Assembly: GCF_000403785.1 (NCBI RefSeq)
Contig: NZ_APHJ01000021.1
Location: 310,001-374,000 of the forward strand
Direction: 5' to 3'
Source: Gillisia sp. CAL575
GTDB lineage: Bacteria; Bacteroidota; Bacteroidia; Flavobacteriales; Flavobacteriaceae
Length of the DNA: 64,000 nt
In this document: positions 5,131 through 50,533 of the stretch, one piece after another
How the letters are laid out: every line of letters begins with the position of its first letter
Numbering within the stretch: position 1 is the stretch's first letter
The notes under the pieces: generated by a model
Seen by the model: the letters and a program-made list of their open reading frames with translations, nothing else
Databases searched by the model: none
What the model was told of the DNA's origin: nothing
Program-made: the position numbers and the translations under genes

Positions 5131-5205
5131 GATCTTTTGTTTTATATTTTTGAATCTTCCTTATTTCTAAGAAAGGATATTTTATTAATTATTATTGGAG
5201 TTTGA

Positions 5206-7983
5206 TTAAACCATAGTTTTATCAAACACGCTTGCAATTACTTTTTCGTGTCGTTTTTTATACCTCACTGAACTACCAGCGGCCGGTGATCCATAGAATT
5301 TTCTACTACATACTCTGAAGTGTTTGGCCTCATCAAAATGTAATAATAAATAACTATAGGCACCCATATTTCTAGGTTCTTCTTGAGCCCAAACAATATC
5401 GTCTGCGTTCTTATATTTGGCCATTACTTCTTTTATCTTCTCTTCAGGCAATGGAAATAGTTGCTCTACTCTAACCAAAGCGATATCATCTCGCTTATTT
5501 TCTTCCTGATATTCTAAAAGATCATAATAGAATTTACCTGTACAAAATACCAAAGATTTTACTTTATCTACATTGGCAGAAGCATCATCTATAACTGTTT
5601 GGAACGTACCTGTTGCAAATTCTTCTTTGGTAGATAATACTTTTGGGTGCCTTAGCAAACTCTTTGGAGTAAATACTATTAATGGTTTTCTATAATTCAC
5701 TTTCATTTGTCTTCTCAACAAATGGTACATATTTGCAGGAGTCGTTACATCTGCAACAAACATATTATCTGTGGCACAAAGTTGTAAAAAACGTTCCATT
5801 CTTCCTGAAGAATGTTCTGCTCCTTGCCCCTCATATCCATGAGGCAATAGCATTACTAATCCGTTTTGCAATTTCCATTTATCCTCTGCCGCAGAAATAT
5901 ACTGATCTATCATTATTTGAGCACCATTCACAAAATCTCCAAACTGAGCTTCCCATATGGTTAAAGTATCTGGACTTGCCATAGCATAACCATAGTCAAA
6001 ACCAACTACACCATATTCAGATAACAAAGAGTTATATATGCTAAAGTTTCCTTTTTTATCGGGAATGTTATTATGAAGAATGATCTCTTCTTCACTATCT
6101 TCTACTTTCACAACAGCATGTCTATGAGAAAAAGTTCCTCTCTCTACATCCTGCCCGCTCATTCTCACACTATAACCTTCAGTCATTAATGTACCATAAG
6201 CTAGCAATTCTGCCATCGCCCAATCTAATTGATCAGTTTCAAAATACATTTTTTCACGAGCCTCAATCAGTTTCGCTATCTTCCTAAGGAATTTTTTATC
6301 CTTCGGAAGTTTTGTGATCACCTTTGCAACCTCATCAAGAACTTTAATATCTATAGTGGTATCTACAGGAGCCATCATTGTATCTTCCTGTACATTTTCA
6401 TATCCTTCCCATTCATCTTTCATGAAAGGAGTGATCCTTGTAGTATCTTCTTTTCGGGAATCTTCTAATTCCTCTTCTAATTTCGATTTGTATTCCTCTT
6501 CCAGCTTTTTAACATAGCCATCATTTATGACGCCGCTTTTAATCAACTTTTCAGCATAAATATCTCTCGGATTTTCATGCTTAGCAATCGCTTTATATAA
6601 TTTTGGCTGAGTGAATCTTGGCTCATCCCCTTCATTATGTCCATATTTTCTATATCCTAACAGATCTATAAAGACATCTCTTTTAAATTGCATTCTAAAA
6701 TCTAACGCAAATAAAACGGCATGAACAACTGCTTCTGCATCATCTGCATTTACATGCAAGACAGGCGATAAGGTTACTTTTCCAACATCCGTACAATAAG
6801 TAGAAGAACGGCCATCTAAATAATTCGTAGTAAATCCTATTTGGTTATTCACTACAATATGAATAGTTCCGCCAGTTTTGTAACCCTCCAATTGTGCCAT
6901 TTGCACTAACTCGTATACTAAACCTTGACCCGCAATTGCAGCGTCACCATGTACTATAATTGGAAGAACTTGAGAAAAGTCATCCTTATAATGCCTGTCT
7001 TGTTTTGCTCTTGCAATTCCTTCCACTACCGCACCTACCGTCTCTAAATGAGATGGGTTTGGGGCAATATTAATATTTATCTCTTTACCATTGGTCGTAG
7101 TTCTACAACTTGTCCATCCTAGGTGATATTTAACATCTCCATCAAAAATGTCCTGCTCATAATCCTTTCCATCAAATTCACTAAAGATATCTTTTGCACT
7201 TTTTCCAAAAATATTGGTTAGTGCATTCAATCTTCCCCGGTGAGACATTCCCATTACAAAATCTTTCACGCCAACATCTGCCGCTTTTTCAATAATGGTA
7301 TCTAATGCAGGGATCAAACTTTCATTACCCTCTAAGGAAAATCTTTTTTGTCCTACATATTTTGTGTGTAAGAAGCTTTCAAAAGAAACTGCATTGTTAA
7401 GTTTTGAAAGTATATTCTTTTTCTCAGCATCAGTAAACTTCGGCTGATTGTCATTAATGTTTAATTTTTGTTGAATCCACTCTATCTCTTCCGGCTTGCG
7501 GATATACATATATTCTACACCAATAGATTGGCAGTAGATTGTTTCAAGATGTTTTACGATCTCCTTTAGAGTGGTGGGACCAATTCCTATTATATCTCCA
7601 GCACTAAAGGTTTTATCAAGATCATCGTTAGATAATCCGAAGTTTTCTAATGCAAGGGTTGGTACATATTGCCTGCGCTCGCGAACTGGGTTAGTTTTAG
7701 TAAATAAGTGACCACGTGTTCTGTAACCGTCAATCAATCGAATTACCTGAAACTCTTTTTTAATATTTTCAGGAATTTCTGTAGCGGCAAAGTCTTGTTT
7801 TTCAGCACCATTATCTTGGTAAGATCCTTCCGGAAGCTCCCCATTTTGCTCCATTCCAAAGTCAAAACCTTGAAAAAATGCTCTCCAGCTAGGTTCTACA
7901 CTATCTGGATTTTGTAAATACTGATCGTAAAGATTTGCGAAGTAGGCTGTTGGTGCAGCGTTTAGAAATGAAAATTTGTCCAT
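5206..7983 (-). CDS. sucA: 2-oxoglutarate dehydrogenase E1 component
   Basis: The thiamine-diphosphate enzyme that decarboxylates 2-oxoglutarate and passes the succinyl group to E2. The 925-residue length, the N-terminal FLNAAPTAYFANLYDQYL segment, HRGRLNAL, the cofactor region HGDAAIAGQG...NNQIGFTT and the C-terminal transketolase-like region (GYEGQGAEHSSGR, then WAQEEPRNMGA) are all typical of the E1o family. It is the first gene of a sucA-sucB operon ending at the 3784-3820 terminator. The E3 lipoamide dehydrogenase is not linked here. Confidence 0.96.
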   Translation of the reverse strand: MDKFSFLNAAPTAYFANLYDQYLQNPDSVEPSWRAFFQGFDFGMEQNGELPEGSYQDNGAEKQDFAATEIPENIKKEFQVIRLIDGYRTRGHLFTKTNPVRERRQYVPTLALENFGLSNDDLDKTFSAGDIIGIGPTTLKEIVKHLETIYCQSIGVEYMYIRKPEEIEWIQQKLNINDNQPKFTDAEKKNILSKLNNAVSFESFLHTKYVGQKRFSLEGNESLIPALDTIIEKAADVGVKDFVMGMSHRGRLNALTNIFGKSAKDIFSEFDGKDYEQDIFDGDVKYHLGWTSCRTTTNGKEININIAPNPSHLETVGAVVEGIARAKQDRHYKDDFSQVLPIIVHGDAAIAGQGLVYELVQMAQLEGYKTGGTIHIVVNNQIGFTTNYLDGRSSTYCTDVGKVTLSPVLHVNADDAEAVVHAVLFALDFRMQFKRDVFIDLLGYRKYGHNEGDEPRFTQPKLYKAIAKHENPRDIYAEKLIKSGVINDGYVKKLEEEYKSKLEEELEDSRKEDTTRITPFMKDEWEGYENVQEDTMMAPVDTTIDIKVLDEVAKVITKLPKDKKFLRKIAKLIEAREKMYFETDQLDWAMAELLAYGTLMTEGYSVRMSGQDVERGTFSHRHAVVKVEDSEEEIILHNNIPDKKGNFSIYNSLLSEYGVVGFDYGYAMASPDTLTIWEAQFGDFVNGAQIMIDQYISAAEDKWKLQNGLVMLLPHGYEGQGAEHSSGRMERFLQLCATDNMFVADVTTPANMYHLLRRQMKVNYRKPLIVFTPKSLLRHPKVLSTKEEFATGTFQTVIDDASANVDKVKSLVFCTGKFYYDLLEYQEENKRDDIALVRVEQLFPLPEEKIKEVMAKYKNADDIVWAQEEPRNMGAYSYLLLHFDEAKHFRVCSRKFYGSPAAGSSVRYKKRHEKVIASVFDKTMV

Positions 7984-46009: not shown

Positions 46010-46369
46010 ATGGCATCTCACAACGAACTCGGTAAAAAGGGAGAGGACTTAGCGGTTTCATACCTTTTAAAACACGGATATAAGATCGTAGTCCGAAATT
46101 TTAGATATCAAAAAGCAGAAGTAGATATTATTGCCAGAAAAAAGGATGTTTTGGCTATAATAGAAGTTAAAACTCGCAGCACTCCAGATTTTGGGAATCC
46201 ACAGGATTTTGTAAAAGGCAAACAAATCCAGAACCTAGTTAAAGCTGTCGACTTTTTTGTGACAGAACATAATCTTGATGTAGAGGTTCGATTTGATATT
46301 ATTGCTATCATTAAGAATAAGTCGGGTACCAAAATAGAGCATTTAGAGAATGCTTTTTTATATTTTTAG
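46010..46369 (+). CDS. YraN family (UPF0102) endonuclease-like protein
   Basis: A 119-residue PD-(D/E)xK-fold protein. The family signature runs from the N-terminal GKKGEDLAVSYLLKHGY (Glu12 the predicted active-site residue) through VDIIARKKDVLAIIEVKTR, with the catalytic Asp and Glu-x-Lys. Function is unknown in the family, though a Holliday-junction-resolvase-like fold is recognised. The 3' end carries a hairpin (GAGCATTTAGAGAATGC) whose near copy recurs at 46984-47005. Confidence 0.9.
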   Translation: MASHNELGKKGEDLAVSYLLKHGYKIVVRNFRYQKAEVDIIARKKDVLAIIEVKTRSTPDFGNPQDFVKGKQIQNLVKAVDFFVTEHNLDVEVRFDIIAIIKNKSGTKIEHLENAFLYF

Positions 46370-46383
46370 ATAACATTTATTTT

Positions 46384-46858
46384 GCTCCTTCCCTATTTTC
46401 TAGGGAAGGTGGCGTTCCGCAGGAATGTCGGAAGGGTAAAAGCTACAATCATGAATAAAAAGATTCATAACAGAAAACACCTAGAGCCATATAGGAAAGA
46501 ACTCAGGAAAAATCTAACCTCAGCGGAAGCCTTTCTTTGGAAACAATTACAACAACGGAAACTGGAGGGAAGGAAATTTAGAAGACAACATAGTATTGAA
46601 AACTTTATAGTAGATTTTTATTGTCCAGAAGAAAGGCTAATCATTGAACTTGACGGACAAGTCCATTTAAATCCAACTGCACAAGAAAAGGATGAAAATC
46701 GAACTAAAATATTAGAAGAATTAGGTTTTCGAGTAATTAGATTTGAGAATAAATTAGTATTCGATAATTTACAATCTGTATTACAAGAAATAAAAGATAA
46801 TTTTAAATAAATGACCTCCCCGCTCTTCGAGCACCCCTCCTAAAAATAGGCGGGGAGC
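46384..46858. mobile_element. Putative small mobile unit: inverted repeats around a DUF559 gene
   Basis: The left repeat (46384-46436) starts GCTCCTTCCCTATTTTCTAG and continues GGGAAGGTGGC...GGAAGGGT. The right repeat (46811-46858), read on the minus strand, starts GCTCCCCGCCTATTTTTAG and continues GAGGGGTG...GGGGAGGT, so the two are related inverted copies. The endonuclease gene fills almost all the space: its ATG is 14 bp after the left repeat and its stop abuts the right one. A third copy in the left orientation lies at 47027-47084. Mobility is an inference from this layout. Confidence 0.5.
46451..46810 (+). CDS. DUF559 endonuclease-domain protein (Vsr-like fold)
   Basis: A 119-residue protein consisting of one DUF559 domain: LRKNLTSAEAFLWKQLQ, then FRRQHSIENFIVDFYCP, the acidic IIELDGQVH catalytic-type block, and FRVIRFENKLVFDN. 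The restriction-endonuclease-like fold is related to Vsr-type nucleases. The ATG at 46451 is used; an upstream in-frame TTG at 46382 would translate the flanking repeat. It is bounded on both sides by inverted repeats (see the unit at 46384-46858). Confidence 0.85.
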   Translation: MNKKIHNRKHLEPYRKELRKNLTSAEAFLWKQLQQRKLEGRKFRRQHSIENFIVDFYCPEERLIIELDGQVHLNPTAQEKDENRTKILEELGFRVIRFENKLVFDNLQSVLQEIKDNFK

Positions 46859-47026
46859 AAAAAAAAAAATAAACAATGCTTTTCTAAAGCTTGATAAGGT
46901 CTCCACTCAGCGCCAACTAAAATTTCTGGTTACTGTACGTCACTTCGAGCATCCATATTAATAATACGTGGGGAGAAAAAACTGAGCATTTGGAAAATGC
47001 TTTTCTCAATCTTAATTTAAACTTTT

Positions 47027-47084
47027 GCTCCTTCCCTGTTTTTTAAGGAAGGTGGCATTCATCCAAAATGATGGAAGAGTAAAA
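47027..47084. repeat. Solo copy of the DUF559-flanking repeat
   Basis: GCTCCTTCCCTGTTTTTTAA followed by GGAAGGTGGC and GGAAGAGTAAAA closely matches the left repeat at 46384-46436, same orientation. It folds as CCTTCCCT/AAGGAAGG-type hairpin and ends about two bases before the mfd stop codon. Confidence 0.75.
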
Positions 47085-47085
47085 T

Positions 47086-50000
47086 TTAAACCTTCGCCTC
47101 TTCCTCCACTTTCACTCTAAAATCTAAGGGTTCCAATACTTTTAAAGCTTTTTCTATAGAAGATATCTTTTCAAAAGTTAGCAATAATCTTAAACCTGCT
47201 CTGGTTTGCTTTTCTTTCATTGTACAAGAATGTGTATGAGAATGTACATATTGTAATACTTTAGAGAAAGTTGGAGTATGGTAAAATTTAGATTGTTGAT
47301 CTGCTATAAAGTATCCGATCAATTTGCCTTTTTTCATGATCACTTTTTCTAAACCTATATGAGAAGCGATCCATTTAATTCGCACACTATTCAAAAGATC
47401 TACCGCCTGAGTTGGTAATTCTCCAAAACGATCTTCCAGATCTGCTTCAAATTTCTGAAGCTCTTCTTCGGTCTTCAAGTTGTTCAGCTTGGTGTAAAGA
47501 CTCAGTCTTTCGGAAATATTATTTATATAATCATCTGGGAACAACAATTCGAAATCGGTATCTATTTGAGTGTCCTTAACAAATACTTTCTGATCTACAT
47601 CTTCAGTTTGCTCATACAGATCTTTAAATTCATTTTCTTTTAATTCTTCAATCGCCTCATTCAATATTTTCTGATAGGTATCAAAACCAATATCACTAAT
47701 AAATCCGCTTTGTTCTCCTCCAAGAAGATCTCCTGCTCCGCGGATTTCAAGATCCTTCATGGCGATGTTAATTCCGCTTCCAAGATCAGAAAATTGCTCT
47801 AAAGCAGTAATTCTTTTTCTGGCATCGTCTGTCATTGCAGAATATGGCGGCGTAATAAAATAACAAAAAGCTTTTTTATTGCTTCTTCCTACTCTCCCTC
47901 GCATCTGGTGTAGATCTGAAAGTCCGAAGTTATTTGCATTATTTATAAAGATGGTATTCGCATTGGTAACATCTAATCCACTTTCTATGATCGTGGTAGA
48001 AACCAGCACATCAAATTCACTATTCATAAAACTGAGCATCAAATTCTCTAGTTTCTTCCCCTCCATTTGTCCATGTCCCACGCCAACTTTAGCATCTGGC
48101 ACCAAACGCTGGATCATCCCTGCAACTTCCTTGATATTTTCAATTCTGTTGTGAATAAAGAAAACCTGTCCCCCACGCTGAATTTCATAAGAAATAGCAT
48201 CTCGAATGGTTTCTTCTGAAAAACGGACCACATTGGTTTCTATAGGATATCTGTTTGGTGGTGGCGTAGTAATGGTTGAAAGATCTCTTGCTGCCATTAA
48301 ACTGAATTGAAGTGTACGCGGAATTGGCGTTGCGGTTAGAGTAAGTGTATCTACATTTTCCTTGATAGTCTTCAGTTTATCCTTTACAGCAACCCCGAAT
48401 TTTTGTTCTTCATCTACCACCAACAACCCAAGATCTTTAAATTTTACGGCTTTGCTTACTAACTGATGTGTCCCAATAATGATATCCACTTTTCCATTTT
48501 CTAGGTCTTCTAAGGTTTCCCTGCGTTCCTTTGCCGTTCTAAATCTATTTAGATAATCTACTGTTACAGGGAAATCTTTAAGCCTTTCTGTAAAGGTTTT
48601 ATGATGCTGAAAAGCTAGAATCGTAGTCGGCACTAAAATGGCTACCTGTTTTCCATTATCTACTGCTTTAAATGCTGCACGAATAGCAACTTCGGTTTTA
48701 CCAAATCCCACATCCCCACAAACCAAACGGTCCATAGGTCTCGGACTTTCCATATCTTCTTTCACTGCAGCAGTAGCCGTGCTTTGATCTGGAGTATCTT
48801 CATATAAAAATGAAGCTTCCAACTCTAATTGCAAGTAAGAATCCGGCCCATATTGAAAACCTTGCTGAGTTCTTCTTTTCGCATATAATTCAATTAGATT
48901 ATAAGCGATATGCTTAACTCTAGCCTTGGTTTTCTGCTTTAAATTTTTCCAGGCATTACTACCTAGTTTATATATTTTTGGAGGTTTCCCGTCTTTTCCG
49001 TTGAATTTGGAGATCTTATGAAGCGAGTGAATGCTCAAGTATAAAATATCCCGCTCCCCATAAAACAATTTAATGGCTTCCTGCATTTTCCCTTCCACAT
49101 CTATCTTCTGGAGTCCGCCAAATTTTCCAATTCCGTGATCTATGTGAGTCACGTAATCTCCAACTTCTAAGTTGGTAAGCTCTTGTAAAGTGATAGCTTG
49201 CTTCTTAGCATAGCCATTCTTTAAATGGAATTTATGATAGCGCTCAAAGATCTGATGGTCTGTATAACAAACCATTTTAGAATCTTCATCTATAAAACCT
49301 TGATACATGGAAAGCACCACGGTTTTATATTTCACTTCCCGTTCCTGATCTTCAAAAATATCATGAAATCTCTTGGCTTGCTGCTCGCTCACACAAAAGA
49401 TATAATTGGTATAACCGGCTTCCTGATTCTCGATCAGGTTATCTATTAATAAGTCGAACTGTTTATTAAATGAAGGTTGCGGCTTGGTATGGAATTCTAT
49501 TATTTCCCCGGCATCTTCAACAGAAGTGCTGGATTTCTTTCGGAGATTATTTATGTTCCCCAGATTTACAACTCTAAATTCTTCGAGTTGCTCTGTTAAA
49601 AGGCCGGAGGAACAAAATAATTCTTCGGGTTTATTATGTTTAATATCATCTCCTAATTTGGTAAAAGCTTCTTCTGCTTTCCCAAATAATTTATCCATTT
49701 CTCCGGAAAGCAATTCCGGATTTTTGATAAAGACAATTGTTTTTTCTGAAATGTATTTTAAAAAGCTTTCTCTAACCTCATCCAAACGTTTGTGTTCTAC
49801 ATTTGGCATTACAGAGATCTTATTAACTTTTTCTGTTGAAAGTTGAGTTTCCACATCGAAACTTCGAATGCTATCTACTTCATTCCCGAAGAATTCTATT
49901 CTATACGGCTCGTCATTACTGAAGGAAAACACATCTATAATTCCACCACGCACAGAAAATTCTCCCGGTTCGGTCACAAAATCTACTCGCGTGAATTTAT

Positions 50001-50496
50001 ATTCAAACAACACTTCATTTACAAAATCTAAAGAAAGTTGGTCTCCAACTGCGATCTTCAAAGTGCTCTTTTCTAATTCTTTTCTAGTAACTACTTTCTC
50101 GAATAAAGCATCCGGATACGTAACTATAAGTGCTGGTTTTTTTCGAGAATTAATGCGGTTTAGAACCTCTGCTCTTAAAAGCACATTGGCATTATCTGTT
50201 TCCTCAAGTTCATAAGGCCTCCGATAACTTCCAGGATAAAAAAGCACATTCTTATCCCCCATTAATTGTTCTAGATCGTTCAAATAATAGGCAGCTTCTT
50301 CTTTATCATTAAATATCAATAGAAATGGTCGCTCTGCAGTGCTAAAAGCATTAGAAAGCACATAGGACAAGGAAGATCCTACCAGTCCTTTTAATTGAAT
50401 TTTTGTAAGATTGTTTTGAGAAGAGGCAATAAAATCCCCAAGTTTCTGCTGTTGCAGAGACTTTGCAAGTGTTTGGGCAATAGTAGATTTACTCAT
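47086..50496 (-). CDS. mfd: Transcription-repair coupling factor
   Basis: A 1136-residue ATP-dependent translocase that removes stalled RNA polymerase and recruits excision repair. Domains in order: UvrB-like region, RNA polymerase-interacting CarD-like domain (GDYVTHIDHGIGKFGGLQKI), RecG-like motor with Walker A GDVGFGKTE, DEEQKFGV and TATPIPRTLQ, and a C-terminal TRCF domain. The ATG at 50496 is chosen because a strong promoter (-33 and -7) lies just upstream; the frame stays open to 50532 but that start is within the promoter. The transcript is probably leaderless. Confidence 0.96.
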   Translation of the reverse strand: MSKSTIAQTLAKSLQQQKLGDFIASSQNNLTKIQLKGLVGSSLSYVLSNAFSTAERPFLLIFNDKEEAAYYLNDLEQLMGDKNVLFYPGSYRRPYELEETDNANVLLRAEVLNRINSRKKPALIVTYPDALFEKVVTRKELEKSTLKIAVGDQLSLDFVNEVLFEYKFTRVDFVTEPGEFSVRGGIIDVFSFSNDEPYRIEFFGNEVDSIRSFDVETQLSTEKVNKISVMPNVEHKRLDEVRESFLKYISEKTIVFIKNPELLSGEMDKLFGKAEEAFTKLGDDIKHNKPEELFCSSGLLTEQLEEFRVVNLGNINNLRKKSSTSVEDAGEIIEFHTKPQPSFNKQFDLLIDNLIENQEAGYTNYIFCVSEQQAKRFHDIFEDQEREVKYKTVVLSMYQGFIDEDSKMVCYTDHQIFERYHKFHLKNGYAKKQAITLQELTNLEVGDYVTHIDHGIGKFGGLQKIDVEGKMQEAIKLFYGERDILYLSIHSLHKISKFNGKDGKPPKIYKLGSNAWKNLKQKTKARVKHIAYNLIELYAKRRTQQGFQYGPDSYLQLELEASFLYEDTPDQSTATAAVKEDMESPRPMDRLVCGDVGFGKTEVAIRAAFKAVDNGKQVAILVPTTILAFQHHKTFTERLKDFPVTVDYLNRFRTAKERRETLEDLENGKVDIIIGTHQLVSKAVKFKDLGLLVVDEEQKFGVAVKDKLKTIKENVDTLTLTATPIPRTLQFSLMAARDLSTITTPPPNRYPIETNVVRFSEETIRDAISYEIQRGGQVFFIHNRIENIKEVAGMIQRLVPDAKVGVGHGQMEGKKLENLMLSFMNSEFDVLVSTTIIESGLDVTNANTIFINNANNFGLSDLHQMRGRVGRSNKKAFCYFITPPYSAMTDDARKRITALEQFSDLGSGINIAMKDLEIRGAGDLLGGEQSGFISDIGFDTYQKILNEAIEELKENEFKDLYEQTEDVDQKVFVKDTQIDTDFELLFPDDYINNISERLSLYTKLNNLKTEEELQKFEADLEDRFGELPTQAVDLLNSVRIKWIASHIGLEKVIMKKGKLIGYFIADQQSKFYHTPTFSKVLQYVHSHTHSCTMKEKQTRAGLRLLLTFEKISSIEKALKVLEPLDFRVKVEEEAKV

Positions 50497-50501
50497 TGTC
50501 G

Positions 50502-50533
50502 CAAAGATAATCGCTGCATCCATCCCGCGCAAA
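50502..50533 (-). promoter_or_regulatory. Promoter of mfd
   Basis: On the minus strand: TTTG (-33, 50533-50530), a 20-bp spacer and TATCTTTG (-7, 50509-50502), a full match to the Bacteroidota consensus. The ATG follows five bases later, implying a leaderless message. Confidence 0.65.

Follow-up and report, generated by a model that had tools for sequence, protein, structure and literature searches.

A DUF559 nuclease gene between inverted intrastrand triplex motifs, a candidate minimal mobile unit in Gillisia and other bacteria

Background

Intrastrand triplex motifs have reportedly been known since 2000, as the PIT elements of Hoyne and Maher. The subject of this paper is a unit of DNA in which two such motifs, in inverted orientation, enclose a gene of the DUF559 family. 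It lies in a stretch of 64,000 nucleotides (nt) from Gillisia sp. CAL575 (contig NZ_APHJ01000021.1, positions 310,001-374,000, forward strand; source genome of 3.64 Mb in 53 contigs), and this whole stretch is called the window below. Intrastrand triplex motifs have been reported, without a mobility gene, as the TM (triplex motif) repeats, named TMECO in Escherichia coli (Holder et al. 2015, PMC4666352), and a G/C-rich type is present in more than 260 bacterial genomes (PMC4666352). Among repetitive extragenic palindromes (REPs), those of the CGTC class have been described without a dedicated transposase, and G. forsetii is CGTC-positive (Di Nocera et al. 2013, PMC3733652). Neither paper reports a partner enzyme.

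The DUF559 family includes E. coli YcjD, and a profile search with YcjD as the query found Vsr (PMC1189080). In Caulobacter, the DUF559 protein VsrA acts with the methyltransferase ScmA, and repair of T:G mismatches is predicted (PMC12907096). The available text of that paper does not contain the word "palindrom" and uses "repeat" twice, once for a LexA box. No functional study of a DUF559 protein other than VsrA surfaced in the open-licence PMC literature.

Association of the repeats with stand-alone DUF559 genes

Each repeat is composed of a pyrimidine (Y) arm, a loop, a purine arm (R1), a connector and a third arm (R2). In repeats A and B of the window, R2 is the mirror of R1, with G staying G and A either staying A or becoming T. 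The connector is a second, variable hairpin or, in other species, a stretch of 1-4 nt. For comparison, 120 stand-alone DUF559 loci were assembled, nearly all from Bacteroidota (L082 is from Acidobacteriota): the best 80 of 103 loci matching the window protein, and the first 40 stand-alone matches listed by E-value in a survey of 247 Bacteroidota genomes (frame of at most 218 amino acids (aa), no stops). The first 20 listed DUF559 matches within open reading frames (ORFs) of at least 839 aa provided a control of fused domains.

A detector based on the triplex code finds a motif within 300 nt of the gene at 109 of the 120 stand-alone loci, and on both sides at 81. Intergenic regions adjoining DUF559 carry a motif in 170 of 206 cases, versus 15 of 137 for other intergenic regions of the same loci (Fisher p 3e-42). 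Block-shuffled local flanks contain one in 0.8% of 360, and the fused domains in 1 of 20 (none on both sides). The loci are not independent, many of them sharing neighbours; when they are joined by single linkage at a protein identity of at least 70% or by shared neighbours, 59 clusters result (the largest of 44 loci), and at least half of the members carry a motif in 54 of the 59, with both-sided motifs in 37.

Other detectors were also used. A strict first version (exact 6-mer arms plus a second hairpin) scored 19 of the 80 loci as both-sided, 36 as one-sided and 25 as empty; since it missed repeats visible by eye it was replaced, finally by the triplex-code detector. An earlier detector, applied to the best 80 of 103 loci, finds a hairpin within 250 nt at 73 of 80 (both sides, 46), compared with 7 upstream, 9 downstream and no both-sided hits in 256 control window pairs; among the 40 added loci it finds 36 (23 both-sided), and among the fused genes 4 of 20 (1 both-sided). 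In the same best 80 of 103, motif-like hairpins reach a density of 5.43/kb within 200 nt of the gene versus 0.23-0.25/kb at a distance of 0.5-3 kb.

The flanking motifs also have a preferred arrangement. At 60 of the 81 both-sided loci the nearest motifs are inverted, the (+,-) order being the commonest (43 of 81), and the Y-arm ends most often point outward. Furthermore, the motif varies with the protein: across 105 loci, DUF559 identity correlates with the k-mer similarity of R1 (Mantel r 0.34; 0.25 for pairs less than 70% identical), a value reached in 0 of 500 permutations in each test and about the same when the difference in GC content is held.

The triplex code of the third arm

The mirror relation was examined in pyrimidine/purine hairpins of at least 7 base pairs located within 350 nt of the gene, at the 120 loci plus the window. 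Hairpins too symmetric for a mirror to be distinguished from a copy were left out and repeats of the same sequence were removed, leaving 388 strand-oriented hairpins. A perfect mirror R2 follows 43.3% of these, against 4.9% for a perfect direct copy with the same A-or-T relaxation and 3.8% for a shuffled target; because each hairpin is counted from both strands, the ceiling is about 50% if only one strand carries R2. Within well-matched R2 arms, an A of R1 is answered by T in 374 cases, A in 329, G in 18 and C in 9, and a G is answered by G in 1193 of 1232. The antiparallel purine-motif triplex code consists of G.GC, A.AT and T.AT. Since a mirrored R2 in which G is kept and A becomes A or T is this code, the repeats that flank DUF559 are intrastrand triplex motifs (PIT elements/TM repeats) by sequence code.

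Two other designs were tried and rejected. R2 as a direct copy of R1, which would give a strand-switching hairpin, scored near the shuffled controls. Pairing of the Y arm with R2 to leave a T:G mismatch, the Vsr substrate, fits CTTCCC-type repeats and fails for the CCTCCC and CCCCTCC types, both judged by eye. Some hairpins (genomes G249, G156 and G245; 13 overlapping pairs) have an R2 on both sides, and there a triplex is possible from either strand.

Copies of the motifs across genomes

The same 247 Bacteroidota genomes were searched with patterns for motif types B and C and divided into those with a strong DUF559 match (E<1e-15, fused genes included; 102 genomes) and those without (145). 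The counts include matches beside DUF559 genes, count hairpins with two R2 arms twice and, being uncorrected for phylogeny, ignore kinship. On this basis, 38 of the 102 genomes with DUF559 versus 9 of the 145 without carry the type C pattern (214 versus 25 matches; p 1e-9), 28 versus 3 the type B pattern (356 versus 12 of 368 matches; p 2e-9), and 54 versus 12 either of them (p 4e-15). A reversed-pattern control gives 0 matches in all genomes. In the window's genus, 12 genomes have a DUF559 match and 6 of these carry an A-type pattern, compared with 0 of the 4 that have no match. Repeat patterns reach up to 112 matches per genome.

Copies away from the gene keep the inverted arrangement. Among 150 of the type B matches listed, there are 24 neighbours at up to 160 nt that do not overlap, 18 of which stand in (+,-) order, and most neighbouring copies that lack a DUF559 gene form inverted pairs. 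Of the (+,-) pairs in genome G146, one encloses a DUF559 gene and the other five lack it; the family thus includes, both here and at TMECO-9 of E. coli, genes bracketed by a repeat with further copies scattered over the genome. In G070, a genome of the window's genus, A- and B-type motifs form a tandem array with a period of about 285 nt (C1:2484578-2485864).

Other phyla and Escherichia coli

The pairing of DUF559 with the motif recurs in several bacterial phyla. In 149 Acidobacteriota genomes searched, a motif lies within 500 nt at 9 of 11 stand-alone loci and on both sides at 7 of 11 (rather than 10/12 and 8/12, because L216 is the same locus as L082), and accompanies 2 of 12 DUF559 domains in open frames of at least 457 aa, several of which are weak partial matches. 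A further sample came from 43 plasmid records matching E. coli YcjD, with one or two loci taken per genus and two Escherichia records left out: a motif lies within 350 nt at 15/18 plus 3/4, or 18/22, of the loci outside Bacteroidota, many of them GC-rich and counted without a shuffled control. The gene and motifs are located between sufB and sufC in Sphingomonas and between paaD and paaZ in Deinococcus.

In E. coli, ycjD occupies 1351407-1351760 on the minus strand, and TMECO-9, at 1351239-1351204 in Table 1 of PMC4666352, is 168 nt downstream of it. TMECO-9 is the sole one of the 23 listed TMECO repeats between 624,676 and 3,045,989 (about 2.4 Mb), and in that table it is letter-identical to TMECO-16, -19 and -22. 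By our own arithmetic, the chance of a given gene being that near one of 18 TMECO sites is about 0.3%; by our own reading of the same table, 4 of 5 inverted TMECO pairs are in (+,-) order. By eye, a partial motif overlaps the 3' end of ycjD. At the E. coli locus L214, the places concerned are 5205-5241 and 5394-5421.

The DUF559 protein

The window protein matches PF04480 (DUF559) with 119.7 bits against a cut-off of 20.6, and its conserved E, D, E-x-D-G and H positions are near invariant; E26, D55, E66, D68, H72 and D81 are 97-100% conserved in 135 aligned proteins. With its AlphaFold model (pLDDT 90.7), Foldseek retrieves 3hrl, a DUF559 protein (E 2.2e-7), and 3r3p, the catalytic domain of the homing endonuclease I-Bth0305I (E 2.6e-4). 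By fold and conserved residues, the protein is a predicted Vsr-like PD-(D/E)XK nuclease, of what we take to be the EDxHD type. Its closest named relatives are from Gillisia (L007, 92% identity). The window protein scores below the cut-off of the NCBIfam DUF559 equivalog, and YcjD scores above it. No HUH/Y1 tyrosine transposase gene was found: profiles match only DUF559 and the related MTES_1575, the latter below its cut-off, and PADLOC gives weak nuclease-domain matches only.

The unit in the window

The features of the unit and its surroundings are collected in Table 1. Repeat A begins at 46384 (+), reading GCTCCTTCCCTATTTTCTAGGGAAGG..., and repeat B, which reads GCTCCCCGCCTATTTTTAGGAGGGG... 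on the minus strand, extends to 46858. The two are related and differ in sequence type, A being CTTCCC-type and B CCCCTCC-type. A TTG at 46382 is an alternative start of the DUF559 ORF, and an ORF beginning there would pass through motif A. A solo copy, A', lies at 47027, about 170 nt beyond repeat B, with a core that matches A.

Table 1. Positions (in the window) of the DUF559 unit, its motifs and its neighbours
Feature	Position	Strand	Details
Intrastrand triplex motif A	46387..46437	+	From sequence; 0 mismatches to triplex code; DNA fold z -4.9
Motif A, Y arm CCTTCCCT	46387-46394	+	
Motif A, loop	46395-46401	+	
Motif A, R1 AGGGAAGG	46402-46409	+	
Motif A, hairpin connector	46410-46429	+	
Motif A, R2 GGAAGGGT	46430-46437	+	Mirror of R1, one A->T
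DUF559 (PF04480) gene, predicted Vsr-like endonuclease	46451..46810	+	119 aa; ATG 46451 to TAA 46810
Intrastrand triplex motif B, opposite in orientation to A	46814..46855	-	From sequence; 1 mismatch to triplex code, in Y arm
Motif B parts: Y arm CCCCGCCT, R1 AGGAGGGG, connector TGCTCGAAGAGC, R2 GGGGAGGT		-	R2 is mirror of R1, A->T
Partial copy of yraN 3' end (46310-46378), directly before A'	46957..47025	+	69 nt, 71% identity
Solo motif A', decayed copy of A	47030..47076	+	2 mismatches to triplex code; identity to A
yraN (UPF0102), host gene, left neighbour	46010..46369	+	
ORF taken to be Mfd-like, host gene, right neighbour, convergent	47086..50532	-	1148 aa; named from its sequence

A core pattern, GCTCCTTCCCTNTTTTNNARGGAAGGTGGCNTTC, has 2 matches in the window and 0 in 100 dinucleotide shuffles. 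When the triplex detector is run over the whole window with at most 1 mismatch, it returns exactly 2 matches, both flanking the DUF559 gene, and 1 in total in 20 dinucleotide shuffles. With at most 2 mismatches A' is added and the 20 shuffles yield 16 matches; thus, A' rests on its 81% identity to A rather than on the detector. The DNA folding energy relative to shuffles is clearly lower for A, less so for B (z -2.9), and that of A' is not below the shuffles (z -1.2). Rfam gives only three matches, all sub-threshold. The genome contains a second DUF559 domain (C18:177269-177583; L001/L203), located in an open frame of 1106 aa, and no triplex motif is found beside it.

A sequence-only reading of this region had proposed a DUF559 gene between two inverted repeats, with a solo copy nearby. 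Both proposals are borne out, the solo copy being decayed. Its account of the repeats captured the hairpin and missed the third arm and the yraN-end copy, and the Vsr/restriction-like fold that it gave for DUF559 agrees with the predicted structure, which is Vsr/homing-endonuclease-like and matches 3hrl and 3r3p.

The 3' end of yraN is present in the window in full (46310-46378) and as two fragments (46875-46895 and 46957-47025), and the repeat that comes next differs in each case (A, then a degenerate repeat of GTCTC type, then A'). These copies may be a record of repair or recombination at the repeats.

Occupied and unoccupied sites

The spacer between the convergent yraN and mfd genes was compared across 16 genomes of the genus (1 without a yraN match; six loci without an mfd match within the stretch examined). 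The unit is present in the window and in L122 (= L007), and L121 (= L077) has a frame-shifted DUF559. In L127 the aligned ends are 13 nt apart; L119, L120, L123 and L129 contain other short sequences, some of them repeat-like, and L117, the closest relative by YraN, contains other ORFs. In G053, one of 30 loci examined from 60 family-wide genomes drawn, yraN and mfd are nearly adjacent. The repeats in L119, L120 and L129 are members, whole or in part, of another family of inverted repeats (TCTCGACTCC...GGAGTCGAGA type), and since related species carry that family here, this spacer is possibly a hotspot where short repeats gather.

Presence and absence are seen in enterobacteria as well. The fabI-ycjD-sapF stretch of E. 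coli is covered to at least 80% in 3330 of 5426 genomes, and in three other E. coli genomes inspected, efflux genes stand next to fabI or sapF in place of ycjD; they are the eef locus described in PMC12817139, where strains bearing ycjD lack eef. Between hrpB and mrcB, a block of some 100 nt, the TM pair, is missing from the strain inspected, and the same coverage of 81-82% recurs in 20 of 60 rows sampled at even steps of the ranking. In the cysP-yfeX spacer, the DUF559 segment of Klebsiella pneumoniae is missing in Klebsiella aerogenes (L273 versus L239). For Sinorhizobium (S. meliloti) pSymB and Azospirillum, no usable unoccupied allele was found.

Interpretation and alternatives

The unit is probably a minimal, REP/RAYT-like selfish element (RAYT, REP-associated tyrosine transposase), in which the gene for a Vsr-like DUF559 nuclease is carried between two triplex motifs. 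This reading draws on what was computed here, namely the association, the mirror/triplex code, the inverted arrangement, the co-occurrence in genomes, the covariation and the presence/absence polymorphism. By analogy, DUF559 would recognise the folded motif, nick the DNA and mobilise it. When the locus becomes single-stranded, as in the lagging-strand template or during repair, the motif would fold into a hairpin, with R2 filling its groove; DUF559 would then recognise this fold and nick at or beside it, and repair or replication restart would copy or relocate the pair of motifs to other intergenic sites, whether or not the gene goes along. Single motifs and inverted pairs that lack the gene would be non-autonomous derivatives of the unit, as REPINs are of RAYTs.

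A more general proposal is offered tentatively, at slightly less than an even chance: DUF559 nucleases across bacteria, E. coli ycjD/TMECO included, would recognise a three-stranded DNA fold and mobilise intrastrand triplex repeats and at least part of the CGTC REPs, with ends set by triplex geometry beyond sequence alone. The recurrence of the gene-repeat pairing in several phyla suggests DUF559 as the partner that has been missing for an old and widespread class of "ownerless" repeats in bacteria. One candidate answer would then serve two questions left open in print, what spreads intrastrand triplex repeats (PMC4666352) and what mobilises CGTC REPs (PMC3733652), and a role would be suggested for a very common nuclease of "unknown function". 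If it does read triplexes, DUF559 would represent a naturally occurring triplex-specific nuclease. The question is testable in E. coli K-12, with ycjD and 23 mapped repeats.

Several observations weigh against mobility. In this computational analysis no movement, cleavage or binding was seen. Many loci keep the same neighbours across species (one cluster of 44); these, therefore, are sites at which the gene has remained and not moved. The covariation of DUF559 and motif fits recognition, but common ancestry could explain part of it. Searches of the window's own genome found just A, A' and B; with its motifs nearly unique, the element is not abundant there. The detector finds no motif at 11 of the 120 stand-alone loci, which include L007, where mutated repeats are visible, and some at contig ends, nor at 2 of the 11 in Acidobacteriota or at 4 of the 22 from plasmid records (Picosynechococcus, Pseudanabaena, Thermoactinomyces and Pseudomonas). 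At the plasmid-record loci, allowing at most 1 mismatch, a direct third arm is about as frequent as a mirrored one; these loci therefore display repeats rather than the mirror code, which rests on the 388 hairpins. Type B or C motifs are present in 12 of 145 genomes without a strong DUF559 match, neither pattern is present in 48 of the 102 with one, and these counts ignore phylogeny. None of the unoccupied sites found is cleanly precise: K. aerogenes retains, at the right edge, a degenerate motif rich in TTAGGG, the edges of the E. coli alleles differ, and ycjD alternates with the eef operon. Since no target-site duplication or sharp insertion end was seen at them, they support presence and absence of the unit, not a mechanism. 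Finally, Holder et al. found the triplex to be stable in vitro and did not see it in vivo, and they found no functional bias among the genes flanking triplex motifs (PMC4666352).

How far the sequence-only reading stands can be judged from these data. Its first check, whether DUF559 genes are consistently flanked by the repeat, comes out in its favour for stand-alone genes (those without the repeat are the minority, 11/120). That the repeat should occur mostly with DUF559 is true of genomes, the motif being found mainly in those that have the gene, and fails for single copies, most of which lie away from it in copy-rich genomes; if they are non-autonomous, this is expected. Of the orthologous empty sites that it asked for, there are unoccupied examples, none of which came out as a clean, precise target. 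Of the small REP/RAYT-like mobile element it had in mind, the association, inverted pairs and presence/absence are observed; movement, cleavage and binding would follow by analogy.

Other explanations can be given for the same data. The motifs may be fragile sites rather than substrates, with the DUF559 gene as cargo, or as a repair nuclease captured or kept there. Triplex motifs have been tied to genomic instability in E. coli (Holder et al., PMC4666352), the fabI-sapF interval is a variable locus (PMC12817139) and the yraN-mfd spacer of related species contains other short repeats. However, fragile sites would gather many kinds of genes, and the other intergenic regions of the same loci rarely have a motif (15/137). 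The pairing also recurs in several phyla, mostly with inverted motifs around the gene, and the motif sequence tracks that of DUF559; an origin as fragile sites is thus unlikely. Regulation of the DUF559 gene by the motifs (as terminator, mRNA hairpin or operator), their spread having another cause, would account for their position within tens of bases of the ORF, sometimes overlapping its 3' end, and for the significant hairpin folding of A. It is nevertheless quite improbable, since a mirror code with T for A is meaningless for Watson-Crick hairpins and motif pairs exist without the gene. In addition, RNA strands are excluded from purine-motif triplexes, according to the title of a paper cited in PMC4666352, and earlier work quoted there found no promoter or terminator activity.

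A conventional homing endonuclease gene, copied by homologous repair into a fixed empty site that it cleaves, would make the repeats its recognition sequence or leftovers. The nearest fold outside DUF559 is indeed I-Bth0305I, many loci have the same neighbours, and in the window the yraN tail with a repeat occurs twice, once on each side of the unit, as a repair-mediated insertion might leave it. Yet DUF559 genes are also found in many different neighbourhoods, and homing leaves up to 112 pattern matches per genome unexplained, which gives this explanation a slim chance. It is least probable, to the point of being very hard to credit, that DUF559 is a very-short-patch mismatch repair nuclease paired with solitary methyltransferases and that the repeats are bystanders: work on Caulobacter VsrA and ScmA (PMC12907096) describes such a partnership, but this would leave unexplained why most stand-alone genes have a motif on each side and fused ones almost none. 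A selfish element that would mobilise its own triplex motifs is the explanation that we favour.

Comparison with known systems

I-Bth0305I and E. coli Vsr share with DUF559 the EDxHD/Vsr fold (3r3p match) and, presumably, the layout of the active site. I-Bth0305I acts as a homing enzyme and Vsr as a nicking enzyme for T:G mismatches; we know of no such repeats at their genes.

The sequence-only reading had stated that it knew of no description of such a system. In fact the repeats have been described as intrastrand triplex motifs (PMC4666352) and perhaps, in part, as CGTC REPs (PMC3733652); the link with DUF559 was found in no paper of the open-licence PMC literature searched, which held no preprints.

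Like the CGTC REPs, some A-type motifs of relatives (for example, the one downstream at L009) have a connector whose other strand reads CGTC-hairpin-CCA. Unlike them, the hairpin here is nested between two purine arms, and A of the window reads CGAC, not CGTC. The 204 connectors measuring 12-45 nt include 43 that end in TGTC...GAC, 13 in TGGC...GAC and 10 in TGGA...GAC; the latter two kinds alone read CGTC...CCA on the other strand. Part of the CGTC-REP super-family may be nested within triplex motifs.

In REP/RAYT systems and REPINs, too, a gene is flanked by short folded repeats, of which there are more copies elsewhere in the genome, and inverted pairs occur. However, a RAYT belongs to the HUH tyrosine transposases and its repeats bear a GTAG tag, whereas here there is a Vsr-like nuclease with triplex-coded repeats, and by eye no GTAG tag is next to either arm of A or B. 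Since both enzyme and tag differ, the DUF559 unit is not a RAYT system, and would work like one by analogy only.

The closest likeness is to the PIT/TM repeats, which have the same pyrimidine arm, loop, purine arm, connector and mirrored third arm with T for A, are likewise intergenic and in inverted pairs, and in TMECO-9 adjoin a DUF559 gene, ycjD of E. coli. They differ in that the TM search (PMC4666352) allowed loops of 1-6 nt, whereas many of the motifs described here have a connector of 12-45 nt.
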